Shown here one piece after another: positions 4,315-35,768 of a DNA stretch of 43,328 bases (positions are counted from its first letter, which is position 1; each line of letters starts with the position of its first letter). The position numbers and the translations under genes are program-made. The notes beneath the pieces are model-generated. The model saw only the letters and a list, made by a program, of their open reading frames with translations. It ran no database searches and was not told the origin of the DNA. This stretch comes from Chloroflexota bacterium (GTDB lineage Bacteria > Chloroflexota > Limnocylindria > Limnocylindrales > CSP1-4): NCBI GenBank assembly GCA_003152995.1, contig PMBR01000127.1, positions 2,106 through 45,433 of the forward strand. Reading direction: 5' to 3'.

Positions 4315-4806
4315 ATGTCTGAGACGGTACTGGGGGTCATTCCCGACGCTCGGATCAAGACCGGCATGCTCAAGTCGGAGACCTGGGTGCTGATAGTCAC
4401 CGATCAGCGGCTGCTCGCCGCCCGCACGACTGACGAGCTCATCAAGAACGTCGCGATGGCTGCCCGGGCGCAGGCGAAGGCGTCGGGGAGCGGTTTCTTC
4501 GGCCAGTGGGGGGCGCAGATCAAGGCCAGCCTTGCGGTCGCACAGCGCTATGGCGCCATGACCCCGGAGGCAATCCTGGCCGAAACGCCGGGCAACTGGG
4601 CGCTCTGGCCGGGCCAGGCCAGCTCGATCAAGGTCGAGCGCAAGTCGCGCAGCGCCGGGGGCGACGACGAGTCGTCGATCGACTACCTCAAGATCACGAT
4701 CGAGGCGGCCGGGGGCAAGGGCGTCTACGAGACGAACGACGACAAGCCGAGCCAGCGCGAAGTCCAGGCTCTGCTGGCCCGAATCTTTGGGCCGATCGTG
4801 AGGTAG
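4315..4806 (+). CDS. Hypothetical protein, PH-like domain
   Basis: 163 residues, no signal peptide or membrane segment. The opening (about residues 1-40) has a beta-hairpin pattern with WVLIVTDQRLLAAR, typical of bacterial PH-like or GRAM-like folds that begin with 'turn on membrane-bound/cytosolic sensor' strands. A helical middle (residues 42-85) follows, and the last third alternates strands with charged residues, including IDYLKITIEA. The start is supported by a GGAGG at 4301-4305. A -10-like TACAAT lies at 4252-4257. No function can be assigned. Confidence 0.8.
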   Translation: MSETVLGVIPDARIKTGMLKSETWVLIVTDQRLLAARTTDELIKNVAMAARAQAKASGSGFFGQWGAQIKASLAVAQRYGAMTPEAILAETPGNWALWPGQASSIKVERKSRSAGGDDESSIDYLKITIEAAGGKGVYETNDDKPSQREVQALLARIFGPIVR

Positions 4807-19104: not shown

Positions 19105-20934
19105 ATGCGGCAAGGCGATCCCGCCGCCCGCCCCAATGACCCACCGAAGGTTTCGGTCGGTCGGGCATCCAGGTCGCGGCGTTCGCGCCGCACGGGTCTC
19201 CTTCTGATCGCTTCGACGGTGCTGGCCTGGCTGGTGATCGTCCCGGCGACGCCGCGCCCGGTGGCAGCGGCCGGCGATCCAGTAATCGCCGCCGCAGGAG
19301 ACATCGCCTGCGACCCGGCGGACGCCCATTTCAACGGCTCCACAAGCTCCTTATGCCAGCAGAGGGCGACCGCGAACCTGCTCGCAAACGGCAACTTCGC
19401 CGCGGTGCTGTCGTTGGGCGACAACCAGTACTACTGCGGAAGCCTGGCCGCGTATCAGCAGTCGTACGACCTGAGCTGGGGCCGGGTGAAGGCCATCACC
19501 CACCCCGTGGTCGGCAATCACGAGTACCTGACCCACGGAGGAACCACTCCTTCGACGGGCTGCGACACGACCAACAACAACGCCGCCGGCTATTTTGCCT
19601 ACTTCGGGTCGGCCGCAGGTCCCCAGGGAAAGGGCTACTACAGCTTCAACGTCGGCGCGTGGCACCTCATCGCGCTCAATACCAACTGCAGCAGCGTCGG
19701 AGGCTGTTCTACCTCTTCCCCCCAGGGCAAGTGGCTGGCTGCGGACCTCGCCGCCCACGCCAATCAGTGCACGCTGGCCTACTGGCACATCCCGCTGTTC
19801 AGTTCGGGCGGCCGGGCCAACAACAACAGCTCAGGTTTCTGGCAGCTGCTGTACGCCGCGCACGCCGACATCGTGCTGGACGGCCACGACCACCTCTACG
19901 AGCGCTTCGCGCCTCAGACCCCGGCCGGAGTAGCCGATCCGACGAAGGGCATACTGGAGATCACGGTGGGCACCGGCGGCGCGGACCACACTTCCGTAAC
20001 CACTGTCGCTGCCAACAGCGTCGTTCGGAATTCGACCACTTTCGGCGTTCTGGCGCTGACGCTGCACGCGGGCAGCTACGCCTGGGCGTTCAAGCCGACA
20101 GCGGGGACCTTCACCGACAGCGGCTCGGCCACGTGCCATAGTGCGACCGCCGCCCCGACGCCGACTCCGACCGCCGCCCCCACGGCTACCCCGACCGCTA
20201 CGCCGGTGGCAACGGCCACGCCCGCCCCCGCCACGACGACATTCGCTCCCGCCGCAGACAGCTACGTGGACGCGTCCGCGCCTACCACCACGCACGGCAC
20301 CGCGACGGCTTTGCGCGTCGACGCATCGCCGGTCGTGCGGTCCCTCCTTCGGTTCAACGTGACCGGCCTGACCGGGACCCTGACCAGAGCGACCCTTCGC
20401 GTCTGGGCCACCAGCGCCCAAGCGACCGGCTACGACGCCTATTCGGTGGCGGATAACACGTGGGTCGAAACCACGGTCGACGACGCCAACGCGCCGCCTT
20501 TCGGTGTCAAGCTCGGCAGTTCCGGCGCAGTTGCCGCCGGCACCTGGACCAGCGTGGACGTCACTTCCGACGTCACCGGCGACGGGACCTACAGCCTCGG
20601 CCTATCGACTACCAACAGCACGGCGCTGGCACTCTCGTCGCGTGAGGGCACCAACCCACCTCAGCTGGTGATAACGACGACAGGTGGCGCGGCCGTGCTC
20701 CCGCCCGTGCCCCCAAGCCGTCCCAACCCGCCCAACCCGATACTTCCCGCTCTGTATCTTCTGATCCCGGTTATGGTCCCGAGTCTTCTGGCCGTGGACC
20801 GGCTGACCGGCCGGCGATTCCTGGGCGGCCCGCGAAAGGGAAACGGCACGCCGGCGCCGGGGCTCCTGGCGCTCGCCCAGATGGCATTCTCGCGTCGAAG
20901 TCTGGCCCGTCGGGCTCTCGGGCTCAAGACCTGA
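19105..20934 (+). CDS. Secreted metallophosphoesterase with DNRLRE-type domain and C-terminal TM
   Basis: 609 residues from the ATG at 19105 (GAGGG nine nt upstream). The signal peptide ends near residue 56. The calcineurin-like domain has all the metal motifs: GDIACD (65-70), LGDNQYY (104-110), GNHEY (137-141), YWHIPLF and DGHDHLYERF. The intervening spacing is like purple-acid-phosphatase-type extracellular enzymes. A Thr/Pro/Ala linker (PTPTPTAAPTATPTATPV) leads to a jelly-roll domain of about 150 residues (FAPAADSYVDASAP..., SLLRFNVTGL, TWVETTVDDAN) of the DNRLRE/CBM96 type, a possible glycan-binding module. A transmembrane helix (YLLIPVMVPSLLAV) and basic tail retain it on the surface. 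Confidence 0.9.
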   Translation: MRQGDPAARPNDPPKVSVGRASRSRRSRRTGLLLIASTVLAWLVIVPATPRPVAAAGDPVIAAAGDIACDPADAHFNGSTSSLCQQRATANLLANGNFAAVLSLGDNQYYCGSLAAYQQSYDLSWGRVKAITHPVVGNHEYLTHGGTTPSTGCDTTNNNAAGYFAYFGSAAGPQGKGYYSFNVGAWHLIALNTNCSSVGGCSTSSPQGKWLAADLAAHANQCTLAYWHIPLFSSGGRANNNSSGFWQLLYAAHADIVLDGHDHLYERFAPQTPAGVADPTKGILEITVGTGGADHTSVTTVAANSVVRNSTTFGVLALTLHAGSYAWAFKPTAGTFTDSGSATCHSATAAPTPTPTAAPTATPTATPVATATPAPATTTFAPAADSYVDASAPTTTHGTATALRVDASPVVRSLLRFNVTGLTGTLTRATLRVWATSAQATGYDAYSVADNTWVETTVDDANAPPFGVKLGSSGAVAAGTWTSVDVTSDVTGDGTYSLGLSTTNSTALALSSREGTNPPQLVITTTGGAAVLPPVPPSRPNPPNPILPALYLLIPVMVPSLLAVDRLTGRRFLGGPRKGNGTPAPGLLALAQMAFSRRSLARRALGLKT

Positions 20935-20989: not shown

Positions 20990-21031
20990 GTAACCAGTTC
21001 GAAAGGCTCACCGGCCGAAAGTGCCGGCATG
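20990..21031 (+). promoter_or_regulatory. Conserved 42-bp element, copy A (upstream of gtrA-like gene)
   Basis: Begins GTAACC and ends at the ATG (21029-21031) of the GtrA-like gene. Aligned without gaps to copies at 23576 and 25832, 22 of the 39 columns before the ATG are identical in all three: TAA-N-C, TTCGA-N-AG, CCGG-N2-GAA-N2-T. GAANNT sits 6 nt before the ATG, in the place of a -10 hexamer. The downstream gene has no ribosome binding site, consistent with a leaderless start. Promoter function is inference. Confidence 0.6.
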
Positions 21032-21556
21032 AACGACAACCGCGCTCCTCATGGCCTCCGCCCGGGCGCGTCCGGGCCGCTCGCACATCTATCCAGAGCC
21101 GCCACGAAGCAGATCGGCAGCTTCGCGGCCATCGGCGTCGTGTCCACGGCGGCCTACGTCGGGCTGTATGCCGCGCTGCGAAACCTCCTGCCGGCGGCCG
21201 CCGCCAACGTCGTGGCGCTCGTGATCACGGCTGTGGCAAACACCGCTGCGAACCGGCGCCTGACTTTCGACGTTCGAGGTCGCGACGGCCTCGCCCGTCA
21301 CCACGTCGCGGGTCTGGTCGCCCTGGCCGTGGCCCTGGTCATGACCTCGGCGTCGCTCGCCACGCTCGGCGTCGTCGCTCCGCGGCACGGCCGTGTGACG
21401 GAGATAACCGTCCTCGTCGCCGCGAACGCGGCCGCGACGCTCGTTCGTTTCCTGTTGCTCCGCCTCGCCATCGAGCGGGCTTCGGGCGTCCGCCGGCCGG
21501 CCGAACCGGCCCCTGCATTCGCTACTCTCTCAACGTCGGAAAGGACACGAGGATGA
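21029..21556 (+). CDS. GtrA-family membrane protein
   Basis: 175 residues. Four predicted transmembrane helices begin with IGSFAAIGVVSTAAYVGLYA, followed by the family-typical NVVALVITAVANTAANRRLTF. A poorly conserved 28-residue N-terminus precedes them. GtrA proteins act with membrane glycosyltransferases and are thought to help present or flip polyprenyl-phosphate sugars. The stop overlaps the start of the GT39 gene (ATGA), so the pair is made together; it parallels the GtrA and GT39 domains fused in the 1187-residue protein nearby. The start codon is the last codon of the conserved 42-bp element. Confidence 0.88.
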   Translation: MNDNRAPHGLRPGASGPLAHLSRAATKQIGSFAAIGVVSTAAYVGLYAALRNLLPAAAANVVALVITAVANTAANRRLTFDVRGRDGLARHHVAGLVALAVALVMTSASLATLGVVAPRHGRVTEITVLVAANAAATLVRFLLLRLAIERASGVRRPAEPAPAFATLSTSERTRG

Positions 21557-23535
21557 CCGCCATCGCCAGACCAGCATTCATGCCGCGCATCCGGCCGGCG
21601 GAAGGCCTCCGCAGTTTTGTCCGCGGCAACATCGACGAAGCCGTCTGGGTTCGCCCGGTCTTCTTCGGAGTCCTGACCCTCGCGGCCGTGCTGTACCTGT
21701 GGAATCTGACGGTCAGCGGCTATGCCAATACGTACTACTCGGCAGCCGCCCTTGCCGGCTCGCAGAGCTGGTCGGCCTGGTTCTTCGGCAGCTTCGACGC
21801 TTCCAACTTCATCACCGTCGACAAGCCGCCGCTCTCCACGATGGTCATGGGCCTCTCGGTCCGGATCTTCGGCCTGAGCTCGTGGAGCGTTCTCGCGCCC
21901 GAGGCGTTCGCCGGCGTGGCCACCGTCGGCGTGCTGTTCCTGGCAGTCAAGCGGTCGTTCGGCCCGGTTGCCGCGCTCATCGCCGCGGTCGTCATGGCTC
22001 TGACGCCGGCCGCAGTCCTGATCTTCCGCTTCAACAACCCCGATGCGCTGCTGACGCTTCTGCTGGTGACGGCCGCCTGGGCGCTGCTCCGCTCGCTCGA
22101 ACACGGCAGCTATCGCTGGATGACACTGGCGGCGGCGTGCGTCGGCCTGGCTTTCCTGACCAAGTACCTGCAGGCCTACCTCGTGCTGCCGGGCTTTGCG
22201 CTCGTCTTCGGTTTCGCCGCCGACACGACCCTGCGGCGCCGTCTCATCGGTCTGGTCGTGGCGTTCGCGACGGTCCTGGCGGCGAGCGGCTGGTGGGTCG
22301 CGATCGAGGAGCTCCTTCCGGCAGGCAGCAAGCCGTTCATCGGCGGCAGCACGACTGGTTCGGCCCTGGACCTGATCTTCGGCTACGACGGTCTCGGCCG
22401 AATCTTCGGCGCCAGCGGGCCCGGTGGGGGCGGTCTTGGGGCGGGCGGTTTCAGCGGCGATGTCGGCCTGCTGCGCCTCTTCAACGACCAGCTATTCGGC
22501 GAGATCGCGTGGCTCATTCCGCTCGCTCTCATATGCCTCGTCGTTGGGTTGGGGATGCGCCGCTGGGCCCATCGGACCGACGCGGGCCTGGCCGGCTACC
22601 TGCTGTGGGGCGGCTGGTTCGTCGTGACGGCGATCGTCTTCAGCTACATGTCGGGTGTCATCCACTCCTACTACGCAGTCGCACTCGCGCCGGCCATCGC
22701 CGCTCTCGTCGGCGCAGGTCTGGTGGACTTGTGGTCGCTCCGGGCGCGGGTCTGGCTCGGCGGCATTGCCGTCGGATTGGTCTGCCTTGGGTCGGCCTGG
22801 TTCGGATCGACCTTGCTCGATCGAACGCCGAGCTTCGAGCCGGGGCTCGGGGCGGCGGCGATCCTGCTCGCGGCGATCGCCCTGACCGCGCTCGTCGTCG
22901 CGTCGCTGCCGCGGCTCGCGGGCAACGTGGCCGTGAAGCGGGTTGCGGTCGGGGCCGCGGCGCTGGGCATCTGCGCCACGCTGATCGCTCCGGCCGCCTA
23001 CGCGCTCGACACTACCGGCACGGCCTACGGCGGCGGCGATCCCCATCCCGGTCCCGCGACGACCTCCGGGTTCGGCGGCGGCTTTGGTGGCGTGGGCGGC
23101 CCGGGCGGCGGCCTGTCGGCGGGTCAGACGGCGGGTCAGCCTGCCGGTTTGCCCGGCGACGGCGGCGGACTCGGCGGCAACAGCTCCGATTCGGCGCTGC
23201 TCAGCTATCTCGTTGCCAATCGGGGCGCGGCGACATGGATCGTCGCGGCCAACTCCGCCCAGGAGGCGGGTTCTATCGAGCTCGCGACGGGCCTCCCCGT
23301 CATGGCCATGGGCGGTTTCACCGGCTCGGATCCGGCGCCGACGCTGGACCAGCTCAAGAGCTACATCGCTTCGGGCAAGCTCCGGTTCGTGCTGGCCGGC
23401 GGCGGAATCGGCGGCGGGGGTGGCTTCGGCGGCTCTGGCGACAGCTCGAGCCGGACCTCGTGGGTGACGGGCACCTGCAAGCTCGTCGACTATGGAGGAT
23501 CCGCGAGCCTGTACGACTGCGCCGGCGCGGCGTAG
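21553..23535 (+). CDS. GT39/ArnT-like membrane glycosyltransferase
   Basis: 660 residues from the ATG at 21553, overlapping the gtrA-like stop; the same frame is open further upstream only as a shadow. About 11-13 transmembrane helices. The family's first luminal loop carries GYANTYYSAAALAGSQSW and the second segment ITVDKPPLSTMVMG. A Gly-rich insertion (GGGGLGAGG, then about residues 505-560 rich in GG) and a C-terminal extracytoplasmic domain with WIVAANSAQEAGSIEL are typical of actinobacterial-type members. Probable activity: transfer of a sugar from polyprenyl-phosphate to a lipid, polymer or protein on the outer face. Acceptor unknown. Confidence 0.9.
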   Translation: MTAIARPAFMPRIRPAEGLRSFVRGNIDEAVWVRPVFFGVLTLAAVLYLWNLTVSGYANTYYSAAALAGSQSWSAWFFGSFDASNFITVDKPPLSTMVMGLSVRIFGLSSWSVLAPEAFAGVATVGVLFLAVKRSFGPVAALIAAVVMALTPAAVLIFRFNNPDALLTLLLVTAAWALLRSLEHGSYRWMTLAAACVGLAFLTKYLQAYLVLPGFALVFGFAADTTLRRRLIGLVVAFATVLAASGWWVAIEELLPAGSKPFIGGSTTGSALDLIFGYDGLGRIFGASGPGGGGLGAGGFSGDVGLLRLFNDQLFGEIAWLIPLALICLVVGLGMRRWAHRTDAGLAGYLLWGGWFVVTAIVFSYMSGVIHSYYAVALAPAIAALVGAGLVDLWSLRARVWLGGIAVGLVCLGSAWFGSTLLDRTPSFEPGLGAAAILLAAIALTALVVASLPRLAGNVAVKRVAVGAAALGICATLIAPAAYALDTTGTAYGGGDPHPGPATTSGFGGGFGGVGGPGGGLSAGQTAGQPAGLPGDGGGLGGNSSDSALLSYLVANRGAATWIVAANSAQEAGSIELATGLPVMAMGGFTGSDPAPTLDQLKSYIASGKLRFVLAGGGIGGGGGFGGSGDSSSRTSWVTGTCKLVDYGGSASLYDCAGAA

Positions 23536-23575
23536 TCGGTCGACGCAGCGGCGCAGCGGCGCCAACGGGGGCGCC

Positions 23576-23617
23576 ATAACCGTTTCGACAGGAGCGCCGG
23601 CAGAACATCCCGTCATG
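23576..23617 (+). promoter_or_regulatory. Conserved 42-bp element, copy C (upstream of two-component system)
   Basis: Begins ATAACC and ends at an ATG at 23615-23617, exactly the spacing seen in copies A and B. It retains TTCGA-N-AG, CCGG-N2-GAA and the T six nt before the ATG. It lies 41 nt after the GT39 stop and 189 nt before the response-regulator start, so a message starting here would carry a leader or a short leader ORF. Confidence 0.55.
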
Positions 23618-23821
23618 CTCCTCCGTGCCGCGATCGTCGCCATCCGCGCGGTGCCGCCTCGCTCGGTCTTCCCCTTTCCGGGCGGGGCGGCGCCGGATTC
23701 CAACTTCGTTCCGACGTGGGCCGGCGGACGCACCGGCGGTACGATGAGGGGGCGGTTGCTGCCGGCCGCGGCGGGTGCCGCTCCGACATTCGGTAGGGAG
23801 ACTCGATGCGCGTGCTCGTAG
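23615..23821 (+). CDS. Possible 68-residue leader ORF before the response regulator
   Basis: Starts at the ATG that ends conserved element C and runs 16 nt into the response-regulator gene. The product (MLLRAAIVAIRAVPPRSV...) has no recognisable domain. Coding is supported only by the position of the ATG; it may be untranslated leader RNA. Confidence 0.2.
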   Translation: MLLRAAIVAIRAVPPRSVFPFPGGAAPDSNFVPTWAGGRTGGTMRGRLLPAAAGAAPTFGRETRCACS

Positions 23822-24474
23822 CCGAGGACGATCCCGGCCTGCGCGAAGTCCTGGTCCTCGGCCTCGAAGACCACGGCTATCAGGTCGACGCGGCCGAACG
23901 CGGCGACGATGCCATCGACCTTCTCAAGTTCTACGACTACGACGTCGCCGTCGTCGACTGGCGGATGCCCGGCGTGGAGGGGATCGACGTCGTCGCCTGG
24001 GCTCGCAAGCATGGCAAGCCAACGGCGATCCTGATGCTCACCGCTCGCGACGCACCGCCGGACAGGATCCGCGGCCTCGACGCGGGTGCCGACGACTACC
24101 TGGTCAAACCCTTCGACTTCGGGGAGCTTCTGGCCCGGATCCGTGCCTTGCAGCGGCGGCCGCGCGGCGTGGATGCCCCGGTAATCGTGCGCGGCTCTCT
24201 GGCCCTGGACCCTGTCCGCCGCGAAGTCACCGTCGGCGATCGACCGCTCGGGATCACCGCCACGGAGTTCAACATCCTCGAGCTGCTCATGCGGCGCTCG
24301 CCTGCGGTCGTCGACCGGAAGGCGATCGCCGAGCACGCCTGGCGCGACGAGACCGACCCGCTCGGCTCGAACGCGATCGACGTCCAGCTCAGCCGGCTGC
24401 GGGCCAAGCTTCCGGCCGCCGGGGTTCGAATCGTGACCGTCCGCGGCGCCGGCTACAGGCTGGAGGAAGCATGA
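23806..24474 (+). CDS. OmpR/PhoB-family response regulator
   Basis: 222 residues. Receiver domain 1-115 with the acidic pocket E7-D8-D9, phospho-acceptor D51 (VVDWRMPG), T79 and K101 (LVKPFD). The winged-helix DNA-binding domain (about 125-222) has ITATEFNILELLMRRSP and SNAIDVQLSRLRAKL. GTAGGGAG nine nt upstream serves as the ribosome binding site. The stop overlaps the kinase start (ATGA). The conserved 42-bp element lies upstream of this gene and of both flanking transcription units, making them candidate targets. Confidence 0.95.
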   Translation: MRVLVAEDDPGLREVLVLGLEDHGYQVDAAERGDDAIDLLKFYDYDVAVVDWRMPGVEGIDVVAWARKHGKPTAILMLTARDAPPDRIRGLDAGADDYLVKPFDFGELLARIRALQRRPRGVDAPVIVRGSLALDPVRREVTVGDRPLGITATEFNILELLMRRSPAVVDRKAIAEHAWRDETDPLGSNAIDVQLSRLRAKLPAAGVRIVTVRGAGYRLEEA

Positions 24475-25760
24475 GGACGTTCGGTCGGGGAGGCGGAAAC
24501 AGCCGCCCCCAGAGCAGCCAGGGCCCGTCCGTGGCGATGATCACCATCCGCGTGGCCATGGCCGCCAGCGCGATCGTCGGCATCGCCTATCTCGTGATCG
24601 CCGTGGTGGTCATCATCTTCGTCACCAACAACCTGACGTCGGACATCGACAACCGCCTCAACCAGGCCCTTGCCCCGGTGCCGATCCAGCCCGGCCCGGA
24701 TCAGCCATTCGGACCGGCCGGCTCGCCAAACCGACCGTTCGGGCCTCCGGTCCTGCTGTGGCGGATCAACCCGACCGGTTCGGTGGAGAGCTTCAACACC
24801 TCGAACGTCGATCTGCCGGTCGCCTACCGCAATGCCGTCGGACCGGAGACGGTCTCGATCAGCGGCGTCGACGTCCGGATCCAGGGAGCCTCTCGCGGCA
24901 CCGACTACGTCGTCGTCGGGTTGACGATGGACAACTTCACCCAGACCCAGTCGACTCTGATCGTGGCCGAGTTCGGGATCGGCTGCGCGTTGCTGATGGT
25001 CGTCTTTCTGGGCGCGGTGGCGGTCGGCCAGAGAGTCGCGCTGCCGATCGATCGAGCACGCCGCCGCCAGCTCGAATTCGCGGCCGACGCCTCGCACGAG
25101 CTGCGGACGCCTCTTTCGGTCATCGAAGCCCAAACGAGCCTGGCTCTCGCGAGAGAGCGAGATCAGGGCCGGGATTCGAACGCTTTCAAGCGGATCGACT
25201 CCGAGCTGCAGCGAACCCGCCGGCTGGTGGACGACATGCTCTGGCTGGCCCGGTTCGACTCAACTGGTGGGCAGCCCGACGCCGAACCGGTCGACCTCGG
25301 CGTACTGGCCGCTCAGGCGGCCGACCGATTCGGGGCGGTGGCGGAGGCCCGGCATCAGAAGCTGACCGTGAACGCCGCGGCGGGCGCGGAGGGGGTCATC
25401 GTGACCGCCTCGCCCGAGTGGCTCGATCGGCTTCTCGGTGTGCTGCTCGACAACGCCTGCAAGTACTCGCCGGAGGGCGGCGCCATCCAGGTCACGGTTG
25501 CCGGAGAGGGACGCCGCGTGCGCCTCACCGTCGACGATTCGGGTCCCGGAATCCCGGCCGAGGAGAGGAGCCGGGTCTTCGACCGCTTCCATCGGGTGAC
25601 GGACGCTCCCGGCGGCGCCGGCCTGGGCCTCGCCATCGCCGATGCCATCGTCCACGCCACCGGCGGCCGCTGGACGATCGCGACGTCTCCCGCCGGCGGC
25701 GCGAGCATCTCCGCCAACTGGCCCCGTTCGGTCTCAGGCCGGCGCGAAATCCGAGCCTGA
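24471..25760 (+). CDS. Membrane sensor histidine kinase
   Basis: 429 residues from the ATG overlapping the regulator stop. TM1 is about 25-53, an extracytoplasmic Pro/Gly-rich sensor region 54-160, TM2 about 163-187. The dimerisation/phospho-acceptor helix contains ASHELRTPLSV with His209. The ATPase domain has the N box LLDNACKYSPEGG (326-337), G1 DDSGPGIP (355-362), F box FDRFHR and G2 GGAGLGLAIA (381-390). There is no obvious HAMP domain between TM2 and the H box, so the coupling segment is short. The sensed signal is unknown; the setting suggests cell-envelope state. Confidence 0.94.
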   Translation: MRTFGRGGGNSRPQSSQGPSVAMITIRVAMAASAIVGIAYLVIAVVVIIFVTNNLTSDIDNRLNQALAPVPIQPGPDQPFGPAGSPNRPFGPPVLLWRINPTGSVESFNTSNVDLPVAYRNAVGPETVSISGVDVRIQGASRGTDYVVVGLTMDNFTQTQSTLIVAEFGIGCALLMVVFLGAVAVGQRVALPIDRARRRQLEFAADASHELRTPLSVIEAQTSLALARERDQGRDSNAFKRIDSELQRTRRLVDDMLWLARFDSTGGQPDAEPVDLGVLAAQAADRFGAVAEARHQKLTVNAAAGAEGVIVTASPEWLDRLLGVLLDNACKYSPEGGAIQVTVAGEGRRVRLTVDDSGPGIPAEERSRVFDRFHRVTDAPGGAGLGLAIADAIVHATGGRWTIATSPAGGASISANWPRSVSGRREIRA

Positions 25761-25831
25761 TCGGTCGGGAGTCCGGGTCGCTTGCATTCACCTGGATATG
25801 GCGACCTTGCCGGCGGGATGAGTTCGCGGCC

Positions 25832-25873
25832 GTAATCCGTTCGAAAGCATGTCCGGTCGAAGCTTCGGCCATG
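25832..25873 (+). promoter_or_regulatory. Conserved 42-bp element, copy B (upstream of DUF5666-like gene)
   Basis: Begins GTAATC and ends at an ATG (25871-25873) at the same offset as copies A and C. It keeps GTTCGAAAG and CCGG-N2-GAA-N2-T. The ATG opens a 39-codon frame whose stop overlaps the next gene's start. Confidence 0.6.
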
Positions 25874-25990
25874 ACAGCGAACCGCCGCTCCGGCGCCACC
25901 GGCCACACCTCCAGACAACGCGTGTGGCTGAGGCGTGACGGGGCCGCGGCCCGCTTTGCTTGCCCCTCGACCAAGGAGTACGACCAATGA
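25871..25990 (+). CDS. Possible 39-residue leader peptide
   Basis: The ATG is the last codon of conserved element B. The frame (MTANRRSGATGHTSRQRVW...) ends in TGA overlapping the ATG of the next gene (ATGA at 25987-25990), as expected for a translationally coupled leader peptide. It is Arg-rich and has no family match that I recognise. Without comparative data it may be only an untranslated leader. Confidence 0.3.
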   Translation: MTANRRSGATGHTSRQRVWLRRDGAAARFACPSTKEYDQ

Positions 25991-26592
25991 ACACGCCCTT
26001 CGTTGCTGCCGGCACCGGCTCGGCTGAGCCGCCCGTGTGGGCGCCCGGCCTCGAGCAAGACGCTGCCGACGAGGCCCCGGAGATCGAAGTCGTGACGGCC
26101 CCCATTTCGAGGTCCACCGCCCGCAACCGACCTCGTCGCGCCAATTCGACGAGCGCACTGCTCGTAGTCGCCGCGCTAGTCGCCTTTGGCGGAGTTGGGT
26201 TCGCCGTTGGCCATGCCACCGCCAGCGGCCAGGCTGCGGCCAGCACCCAGAACGGCAACGCTGCTGCCGGCCAGTTCGGGCCGAACGCGAGCGGTCCTCC
26301 GGACGGCGGTCTTCGCGGCGGCTTCGGGGCTGCGACGGTGACCGGAACCGTAATCAGCGTCGCAACGGATTCGATCACGGTCAAGCTGGCAAGCGGTCAG
26401 ACGGTGACCGTCGCCACGGGCTCATCGACCACGTATCACAATCAGACGGCCGGCTCGAGCACCGATCTCGCGGCGGGACAGACGGTTCAGGTGCAGACGT
26501 CGAACGGGACGAATCCCGACGCGAACGCAAGCGCCAGCCCGGGGACGCAGACCACTCGGACGGCAACCGAAGTGACGATCACATCTAAGTGA
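25987..26592 (+). CDS. Single-pass membrane protein with DUF5666-like domain
   Basis: 201 residues. AAGGAG (25974-25979) lies 7 nt before the ATG. An acidic cytoplasmic N-terminus with Arg-rich stop-transfer (about residues 42-53) is followed by one transmembrane helix (ALLVVAALVAFGGVGFAVGH). An Ala/Asn/Gln-rich tether comes next. The outer domain, ATVTGTVISVATDSITVKLA and TVTVATGSSTTYH, has the small beta-barrel pattern of DUF5666 proteins. Function unknown. It sits directly after the two-component system with its own copy of the 42-bp element, so it may be a target or accessory of that system. Confidence 0.82.
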   Translation: MNTPFVAAGTGSAEPPVWAPGLEQDAADEAPEIEVVTAPISRSTARNRPRRANSTSALLVVAALVAFGGVGFAVGHATASGQAAASTQNGNAAAGQFGPNASGPPDGGLRGGFGAATVTGTVISVATDSITVKLASGQTVTVATGSSTTYHNQTAGSSTDLAAGQTVQVQTSNGTNPDANASASPGTQTTRTATEVTITSK

Positions 26593-35306: not shown

Positions 35307-35768
35307 TCAGGCCGAAGTTGCCGCCTGACAGGCCGGGCACAGACCGAAGAGCTCGACCCTGTGGCGGTCGACTTTGTAGCCGGTCTGGCGCTCGACCTCG
35401 GCGATGATCGGCGTCATGCCCAGCCCTTCCAGATCGACCGCGCGCTGGCAGCGGGTGCAGACCAGGTGGTGGTGATGGCGCGTCGTCTCGCACCGGACGT
35501 ACGAGTGAGCCCCGGTCGGGAGGTCCAGCCGCTCCACTGCGCCCAGGCCCACGAGCAACTCGAGAGTTCGAAAGACGGTCGCGCGCGCCACCCCCAGCTT
35601 GCGTCTCTTCGAGTCGGCGACGAGGTCCGCGGTTTCGAAGGCTCCATCTCGAGTTGCGATCAGCTCTGCGACGGCGCGTCGGGACCCGGTCATGCGATGC
35701 CCGGCGTCCTCGAGCGCGTGAACCAGCTCGGCGGCACGCGGATCGTCGATCGATGGTCGAGTCTGCAT
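35307..35768 (-). CDS. Fur-family regulator (probably Zur-like)
   Basis: 153 residues from the ATG at 35768; ATGs at 35777 and 35789 are also in frame. Winged helix (AGHRMTGSRRAVAELIATRDGAFE... RATVFRTLELLVGLGAV) and a dimerisation domain with HHHHLVCTRCQRAVDLEG and CPAC, giving the HHHxH and CxxC structural zinc sites. The neighbouring zinc-type uptake operon suggests Zur function, but iron or manganese specificity cannot be excluded. TATCAT (35776-35781) ends 7 nt before the ATG at 35768, suggesting a leaderless message. Confidence 0.9.
   Translation of the reverse strand: MQTRPSIDDPRAAELVHALEDAGHRMTGSRRAVAELIATRDGAFETADLVADSKRRKLGVARATVFRTLELLVGLGAVERLDLPTGAHSYVRCETTRHHHHLVCTRCQRAVDLEGLGMTPIIAEVERQTGYKVDRHRVELFGLCPACQAATSA

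Follow-up and report, generated by a model that had tools for sequence, protein, structure and literature searches.

The stretch of DNA analysed here (the window) comprises 43,328 nucleotides of contig PMBR01000127.1 from a Chloroflexota bacterium (assembly GCA_003152995.1), and carries three copies of a short element around the genes of a two-component system. The elements start at 20990, 23576 and 25832 on the forward strand, and their re-alignment confirmed the original prediction in that 22 of 39 columns are identical in all three and an ATG follows at offset 39 in each. All three are intergenic. The element at 20990 lies between the end of an open reading frame (ORF) at 20934 and the start of gtrA at 21029, the element at 23576 between the stop codon of a GT39-type glycosyltransferase gene (23535) and the start of a response regulator (RR) gene (23806), and the element at 25832 between the stop codon of the histidine kinase (HK) gene (25760) and the start of a gene for a DUF5666-like protein (25987). 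The element at 23576 begins with ATAAC, whereas nearly all other sites begin with GTAAC. The features of the locus are collected in Table 1.

Table 1. Genes and sequence elements of the locus, in window coordinates
Feature	Position	Strand	Remarks
Box of site 1, GTAAC-N6-GAAAG	20990..21005	+	putative RR operator of gtrA-GT39
-10-like GAAAGT of site 1	21017..21022	+	
gtrA (GtrA_DPMS_TM)	21029..21556	+	Pfam 40 bits, cut-off 26.1; predicted leaderless, ATG at predicted +1
GT39-type glycosyltransferase	21553..23535	+	Pfam PMT_2, YkcB_C; overlaps gtrA stop (ATGA)
Box of site 2, ATAAC-N6-GACAG	23576..23591	+	putative autoregulatory operator
-10-like GAACAT of site 2	23603..23608	+	
68-codon ORF, ATG at predicted +1 of site 2	23615..23821	+	without Pfam or NCBIfam match
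OmpR/PhoB-family response regulator (RR)	23806..24474	+	Response_reg + Trans_reg_C
Histidine kinase (HK)	24471..25760	+	Pfam HisKA + HATPase_c
Box of site 3, GTAAT-N6-GAAAG	25832..25847	+	putative operator of DUF5666-like gene
-10-like GAAGCT of site 3	25859..25864	+	
39-codon ORF, ATG at predicted +1 of site 3	25871..25990	+	stop overlaps next start; not conserved in relatives
'DUF5666-like' protein	25987..26592	+	one apparent N-terminal membrane segment

The identities given earlier to gtrA, GT39, RR and HK were borne out by Pfam, the RR scoring 102.6 bits for Response_reg (cut-off 30.2) and 67 bits for Trans_reg_C (cut-off 26.2). The DUF5666 label was not: the protein encoded at 25987..26592 has no DUF5666 match in Pfam. 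Because Pfam gives only a marginal match to ProQ_C (24.5 bits, cut-off 23.3), the name DUF5666-like remains that of the original prediction. For comparison, the best 80 of 244 RR-orthologue loci found, all from named genomes, were collected (768 kb). In an alignment of 80 RR sequences, made of the window RR and 79 of the 80 orthologues, residues D51 (DWRMP) and K101 (KPF) and the recognition-helix segment GSNxIDVxxSR are kept. The RR stays below the equivalog cut-off of NCBIfam RppA (NF041734), with 185.3 against 250 bits.

The similarity of the three elements had been described as far above chance. This applies to a single random triple, for which the probability of at least 22 identities in 39 columns is 4e-14. 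However, the two strands of the window together allow about 1e14 triples, so that similarity within the window is not decisive and a chance match is not excluded by it; it is ruled out by conservation in relatives. The elements are judged real because this conservation and a scan of the host genome decide the matter. The host assembly, a 73% complete metagenome-assembled genome (MAG) of 3,047,450 bases in 140 contigs, was searched with the pattern RTAAYCNNTTCGANAGNNNNNCCGGNNGAA, allowing up to 2 mismatches, with the reversed pattern as control. The three window elements were the only matches, and the control gave 0. A motif scattered in coding regions, named as the outcome that would speak against a regulon, was not found in the host genome at this stringency, and a dispersed repeat is ruled out by there being only 3 matches in 3.05 Mb, all of them intergenic.

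With the relaxed pattern GTMAY-N5-CGAMAG, the host genome yielded 13 matches (9 forward, 4 reverse; 5 and 0 in the control). Sites 1 and 3 are among them, and site 2 with its ATAAC falls outside that pattern. A reading by eye of the remaining 11 for further host targets found none with a NANNNT at the expected position or 1 bp away from it. A separate observation in the host genome is GTCACCCGTTCGAAAG at G000:C30:6054 (L254), 51 bp upstream of a ferredoxin-like ORF and without a -10 at the usual place.

An information profile of the element was calculated from 29 of 32 sites, the three sites at MacA-like genes (class X) being left out. The aligned sites have a sharp left edge and read C-GTAACC-n-GTTC-GAMAG, followed by CCGG, an A in column 29, a T in column 33 and an ATG at about column 40. 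The conserved core consists of a 16-bp block of two half-sites and a -10-like NANNNT; the CCGG between them is weaker. A longer operator with an extra upstream half-site was rejected, as there is no information upstream of column 0. The core half-sites, GTAAY-N6-GAMAG, are 11 bp apart, and the form in wider relatives is GTMAY-N6-GAMAG. In the 80 RR loci GTAAY-N6-GAMAG occurs 73 times, 72 of them on the RR strand; any other spacing from 0 to 15 occurs at most twice, and the reverse order of half-sites is absent at N6 and occurs at most 3 times elsewhere. Regulators of the OmpR family occupy tandem half-sites in head-to-tail orientation with a period of about 11 bp, and the box shows both the tandem arrangement and this period.

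The hexamer NANNNT stands at a fixed place in 66 of the 72 sites scoring at least 20, is shifted by 1 in 5 and is missing in 1, although it lay outside the 17-column matrix used for searching. Its strong positions are A and T only, and the base at -12 in the 71 sites with the hexamer is G in 39, C in 27, A in 3 and T in 2. The earlier assignment of a -10 element with A second and T sixth, 6 nt before the ATG, is upheld by these aligned sites and by a survey of leaderless starts. Its likeness to the leaderless starts of arsR (37709, TATTCT-6 nt-ATG) and merR (38146, TAGGGT-6 nt-ATG) had been noted correctly. Upstream of 1238 ORF starts in the window and the 80 loci, TANNNT ends 6 nt before the start in 25 cases and 7 nt in 10, as compared with 0-3 cases at gaps of 3-5, 8 and 10-12 nt. 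TANNNT also peaks at a gap of 9 nt (10/1238), perhaps because of homologous copies or of starts lying 3 nt downstream. Three more leaderless-like starts of the form TANNNT-N5-7-ATG are present in the window on the reverse strand, at 35768, 7704 and 4198; the product starting at 35768 may be a Fur-family regulator, as judged by its sequence.

Only at site 1 does the ATG of the element coincide with a gene start. There the NANNNT ends 6 nt before the ATG of gtrA, as at the ordinary TANNNT peak. The ATG of site 2 opens a 68-codon ORF that overlaps the start of the RR gene in a different frame; the RR gene begins 191 nt after this ATG and has its own ribosome-binding-like GGTAGGGAG upstream. The ATG of site 3 opens an ORF of 39 codons, which ends on the ATGA where the DUF5666-like gene starts; this gene start lies 116 nt after the site 3 ATG and is preceded by a ribosome-binding-like AAGGAG. 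The possibility that sites 2 and 3 each encode a conserved small protein was considered and rejected, since ORF lengths and sequences vary among relatives, and the 68-codon ORF is probably not a conserved protein. Over all sites an ATG is found within offsets 36-43 at 22/23 gtrA sites, 12/30 RR sites, 7/13 DUF5666-like sites, 20/27 sites at other targets and at the single GT39 site (1/1). Of the 22 ORFs opened at gtrA sites, 17 read into gtrA, 2 are GT2 (GtrB-like) ORFs and 3 are other ORFs, as read by eye. By these counts the module often makes leaderless genes, but the operator itself does not include the ATG. The description of all three promoters as leaderless thus holds for gtrA, but not for the RR and DUF5666-like genes, which have 5' leaders and in relatives often no ATG at +1; among the three window targets only gtrA appears to be leaderless.

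The related genomes were scanned with a position matrix, as the original prediction had proposed, and the sites recur at gtrA, RR and DUF5666-like genes. The search pattern at up to 2 mismatches is found in 17 of 107 genomes of the family, including 12 of the 21 genomes of the genus, and its reversed control in none of the 107. In the loci compared from relatives the gene order is the same, and the element stands before gtrA-GT39, RR-HK and the DUF5666-like gene. With the 17-column matrix at a threshold of 15, and counting only loci that have the gene and are not truncated at a contig end, the box was found in 18 genomes of the genus at 14/14 gtrA, 15/15 DUF5666-like and 12/16 RR loci. Over the 80 RR loci a box scoring above 15 is present in 59. 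At more distant RR loci the box turns into GTCAC-N6-GAAAGG. Fifteen loci carry Dormibacterota or Dormibacter (both spellings) in their titles; in 5 of these the box scores above 15, though only just in L202 (15.3). Co-variation of RR residues with GTAAC or GTCAC was looked for and set aside; only W195 L/M differed between the groups (45 vs 12), a weak signal confounded by descent.

The presence of the box was then compared with that of the RR gene. An RR orthologue (E<=1e-60) is present in 46 of the 107 family genomes; in ten checked genomes without one, the next best response regulator reaches only 2.1e-48 and at most 46% identity. A sequence model of the 32 sites, R1, was run on all 107 genomes with stricter filters that lose weak matches. 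It matched (E<=1e-3) in 31/46 genomes with the RR and in 4/61 without it (Fisher 2e-11), and outside the window's own genus in 16/29 and 4/57, respectively (Fisher 1.6e-6). GT39 loci are a further comparison: of 11 such loci in genomes lacking the RR, 10 have no box above 13 and one (G015) has a box. This comparison is weak because gtrA was detected only in G015, contig ends cut several of the loci and many of the GT39s are only 40-60% identical. In genomes with the RR, four GT39 loci that do not adjoin it are also boxless (G009:C70, G021:C397, G007:C28, G024:C104), the first three of which are probably paralogues. The cleanest case without the RR is G036, a 92% complete genome of the same genus that has kept GT39 (79%) and, directly after it, carries a 49-residue RR-like remnant (G036:C24, L230:6616-6759). 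No match was obtained in G036 for HK, gtrA, the DUF5666-like gene or the box. This may be a decay of the whole system in one member of the genus.

Further genes follow the box in relatives. A MacA-like adaptor gene is a target in four genomes (L038, L043, L044, L045). In Pfam it stays under the cut-off (Biotin_lipoyl_2, 18.3 vs 29.8 bits), and the label is given because of the reading of its sequence and of an ABC-ATPase-like ORF after the host homologue. This homologue (C52:26468, 67% identity) has no good box, the top score being 9.0 and far upstream. Other targets are ferric-reductase-like (L215), ApbE (L171) and GT2 (L172, L175) genes and, with weak boxes, genes for an HlyD-type adaptor (L202, 15.3) and YceI (L210, 15.1). 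The common thread of the regulon, as judged from the predicted products, is the cell envelope together with extracytoplasmic redox. At L215:5296, L201:5298, L204:2638, L182:5297 and L205:1892 a box scoring 17-24 stands some 700 bp upstream of the RR gene, before a gene for a ferric-reductase-like membrane protein, and in L171 and L178 a box stands ahead of an ApbE-like gene; the predicted products suggest a redox branch of the regulon in relatives. In L214 the RR gene and an opposite gene, whose product has a MacA-like N-terminus, are separated by a region with two divergent boxes, at 4511 (-) and 4571 (+), at a distance of 60 bp from each other.

The best explanation, to which we assign a probability of about 85%, is that the elements are the operator-promoter module of a self-regulated two-component system, and that the RR of the window reads three targets. 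From the box, its spacing, position and conservation, and the way in which it co-occurs with the RR gene, all obtained by computation, we infer the following mechanism. The operator would consist of two 5-bp half-sites repeated in tandem and in the same direction with an 11-bp period, and would cover -39 to -24 relative to a transcription start placed at the ATG. A dimer of the phosphorylated RR would bind head to tail in place of a -35 region and would recruit RNA polymerase with the principal sigma factor to the NANNNT -10, in a class II-type arrangement. The targets would be gtrA-GT39, transcribed without a leader, the RR-HK operon itself, by autoregulation, and the DUF5666-like gene. Activation of these targets by the RR is most likely, and is preferred to repression because of the position of the box only. 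The small regulon originally proposed is supported.

Several observations weigh against this explanation. The two half-sites are not identical (GTAAC vs GAAAG). The matrix was trained on 72 named-locus sites, partly from genomes that were later scored, and the Fisher test takes related genomes as independent and ignores assembly gaps. No box above 15 is present at 21/80 RR loci, four RR genes of the genus lack a nearby box (G037, G040, G043, G044), and 15/46 genomes with the RR have no R1 match at E<=1e-3. G025 has the RR, yet no box above 13 at its gtrA-GT39 locus (G025:C130). Conversely, boxes are found in four genomes without the RR, namely G015 (79% complete), G063 (91%), G068 (61%) and G081 (81%).

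These last four genomes would fit a different reader of the box, for instance a second OmpR-family regulator, with the adjoining RR being a target only. The ten checked genomes without the RR do carry other OmpR-family regulators, up to 46% identical. On the other hand, the box co-occurs with this RR across the family and occupies an autogenous position, and the four genomes are MAGs of 61-91% completeness, one of which (G081) has an HK orthologue near a contig end; we strongly doubt this alternative. An alternative sigma factor had been proposed alongside the RR as the recogniser. The element would then be a promoter of the extracytoplasmic function (ECF) type, with GTAAC as -35 and a CGAA/GAGACT-like -10, which would accord with a block starting near -39 and with the rarity of T at -12; AAC is also common in ECF -35 elements. 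However, ECF promoters combine a short -35 with a spacer of about 16-17 bp, and some 22-23 bp separate the -35 start from the -10, whereas about 26-27 bp lie between the GTAAC start and the -10 here. The GAMAG block is as conserved as GTAAC in a region where ECF factors make few base contacts, and the hexamer holds only A and T as strong positions. The 11-bp tandem half-sites, the co-occurrence and the adjacency of a box to the RR's own gene all point to the RR; nothing found favours a sigma factor, with no search for sigma genes made, and we consider an ECF promoter improbable.

A third alternative places the function in RNA or translation, the ATG at +1 of sites 2 and 3 opening leaderless ORFs whose leader peptides would control the gene that follows. 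The frequency of an ATG at offsets 36-43 at RR and DUF5666-like sites (see above) exceeds the expectation from base composition, and the stop of the site 3 ORF overlaps the next start. Yet these ORFs vary in sequence and in length (from 21 to more than 200 codons, with some extending into the gene), many orthologous promoters lack them, and the core block lies upstream of the predicted start, all of which makes this alternative barely plausible. A bolder extension of the RR-read module is conceivable but rather unlikely. It would have operator, -10 and start codon form a rigid module for one RR, with its geometry kept from Chloroflexota to Dormibacterota-titled genomes. The RR would replace the -35 and permit loss of the T usually found at -12, while at non-leaderless targets the +1 ATG would open leaderless regulatory ORFs. 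One signal would thereby govern transcription as well as translation of a regulon for envelope remodelling (GtrA/GtrB/GT39, DUF5666-like, MacA-like, joined in some relatives by ferric-reductase-like and ApbE).

An operator, a regulator and a list of targets, all open to test, are proposed for a two-component system of bacteria known here only from MAGs. The box lets the regulon be read straight from sequence in related genomes, and the system would offer a convenient example of a leaderless promoter controlled by an OmpR-family regulator. A search of the open-access PubMed Central (PMC) literature found no papers on it. It was set against known regulators. The nearest solved sequences to the RR include 8jo2 and 4s04, of the OmpR-family regulator PmrA/BasR. 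This regulator controls surface modification genes, including an ArnT-type transferase, and its PmrA box is a different direct repeat; the RR of the window stays below the NCBIfam PmrA cut-off (165.1 vs 330 bits). The top sequence match in the Protein Data Bank is 7lz9, titled 'putative two-component system response regulator', which we take to be a CutR. The published CutR site, TAWATAAA (PMC12802291), differs from the box.

The GlnR box of actinomycetes and the MtrA operator are closer to it in build. The GlnR box is given as gTnAc-n6-GaAAc for S. coelicolor, GTnAC-n6-GTnAC for S. venezuelae and t/gTAAC-n6-Gc/aAAC for M. smegmatis (PMC3087709, PMC10704036). Like it, the present box has two 5-bp half-sites with 6 bp between them, and the first half-site is identical. 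Unlike the GlnR b-site (GaAAc), the second half-site is GAMAG and ends in G; this G is found in 72/72 sites, where the search pattern required it, and is also invariant in the 32-site set, which came mainly from a looser pattern. GlnR is described as an orphan regulator, and its activation complex contains four DNA-binding domains head to tail (PMC10704036). Here a single 16-bp box is present, the RR adjoins an HK gene (24471-25760) and keeps its phosphoacceptor site intact, and envelope rather than nitrogen genes are the targets. The MtrA operator of the MtrAB system, GtnAcC-n5-GTnAcn, with a site at -34 of its own operon (PMC13189361), shares with the box the direct repeat, the 11-bp period and the site at the regulator's own operon. 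However, the RR fails the NCBIfam MtrA (NF040689) equivalog cut-off (145.9 vs 300 bits), and its neighbours are gtrA-GT39 and the DUF5666-like gene, not lpqB. Thus, the module is a known kind of regulation in a new instance, with a well-conserved site, in uncultured Chloroflexota-type bacteria.

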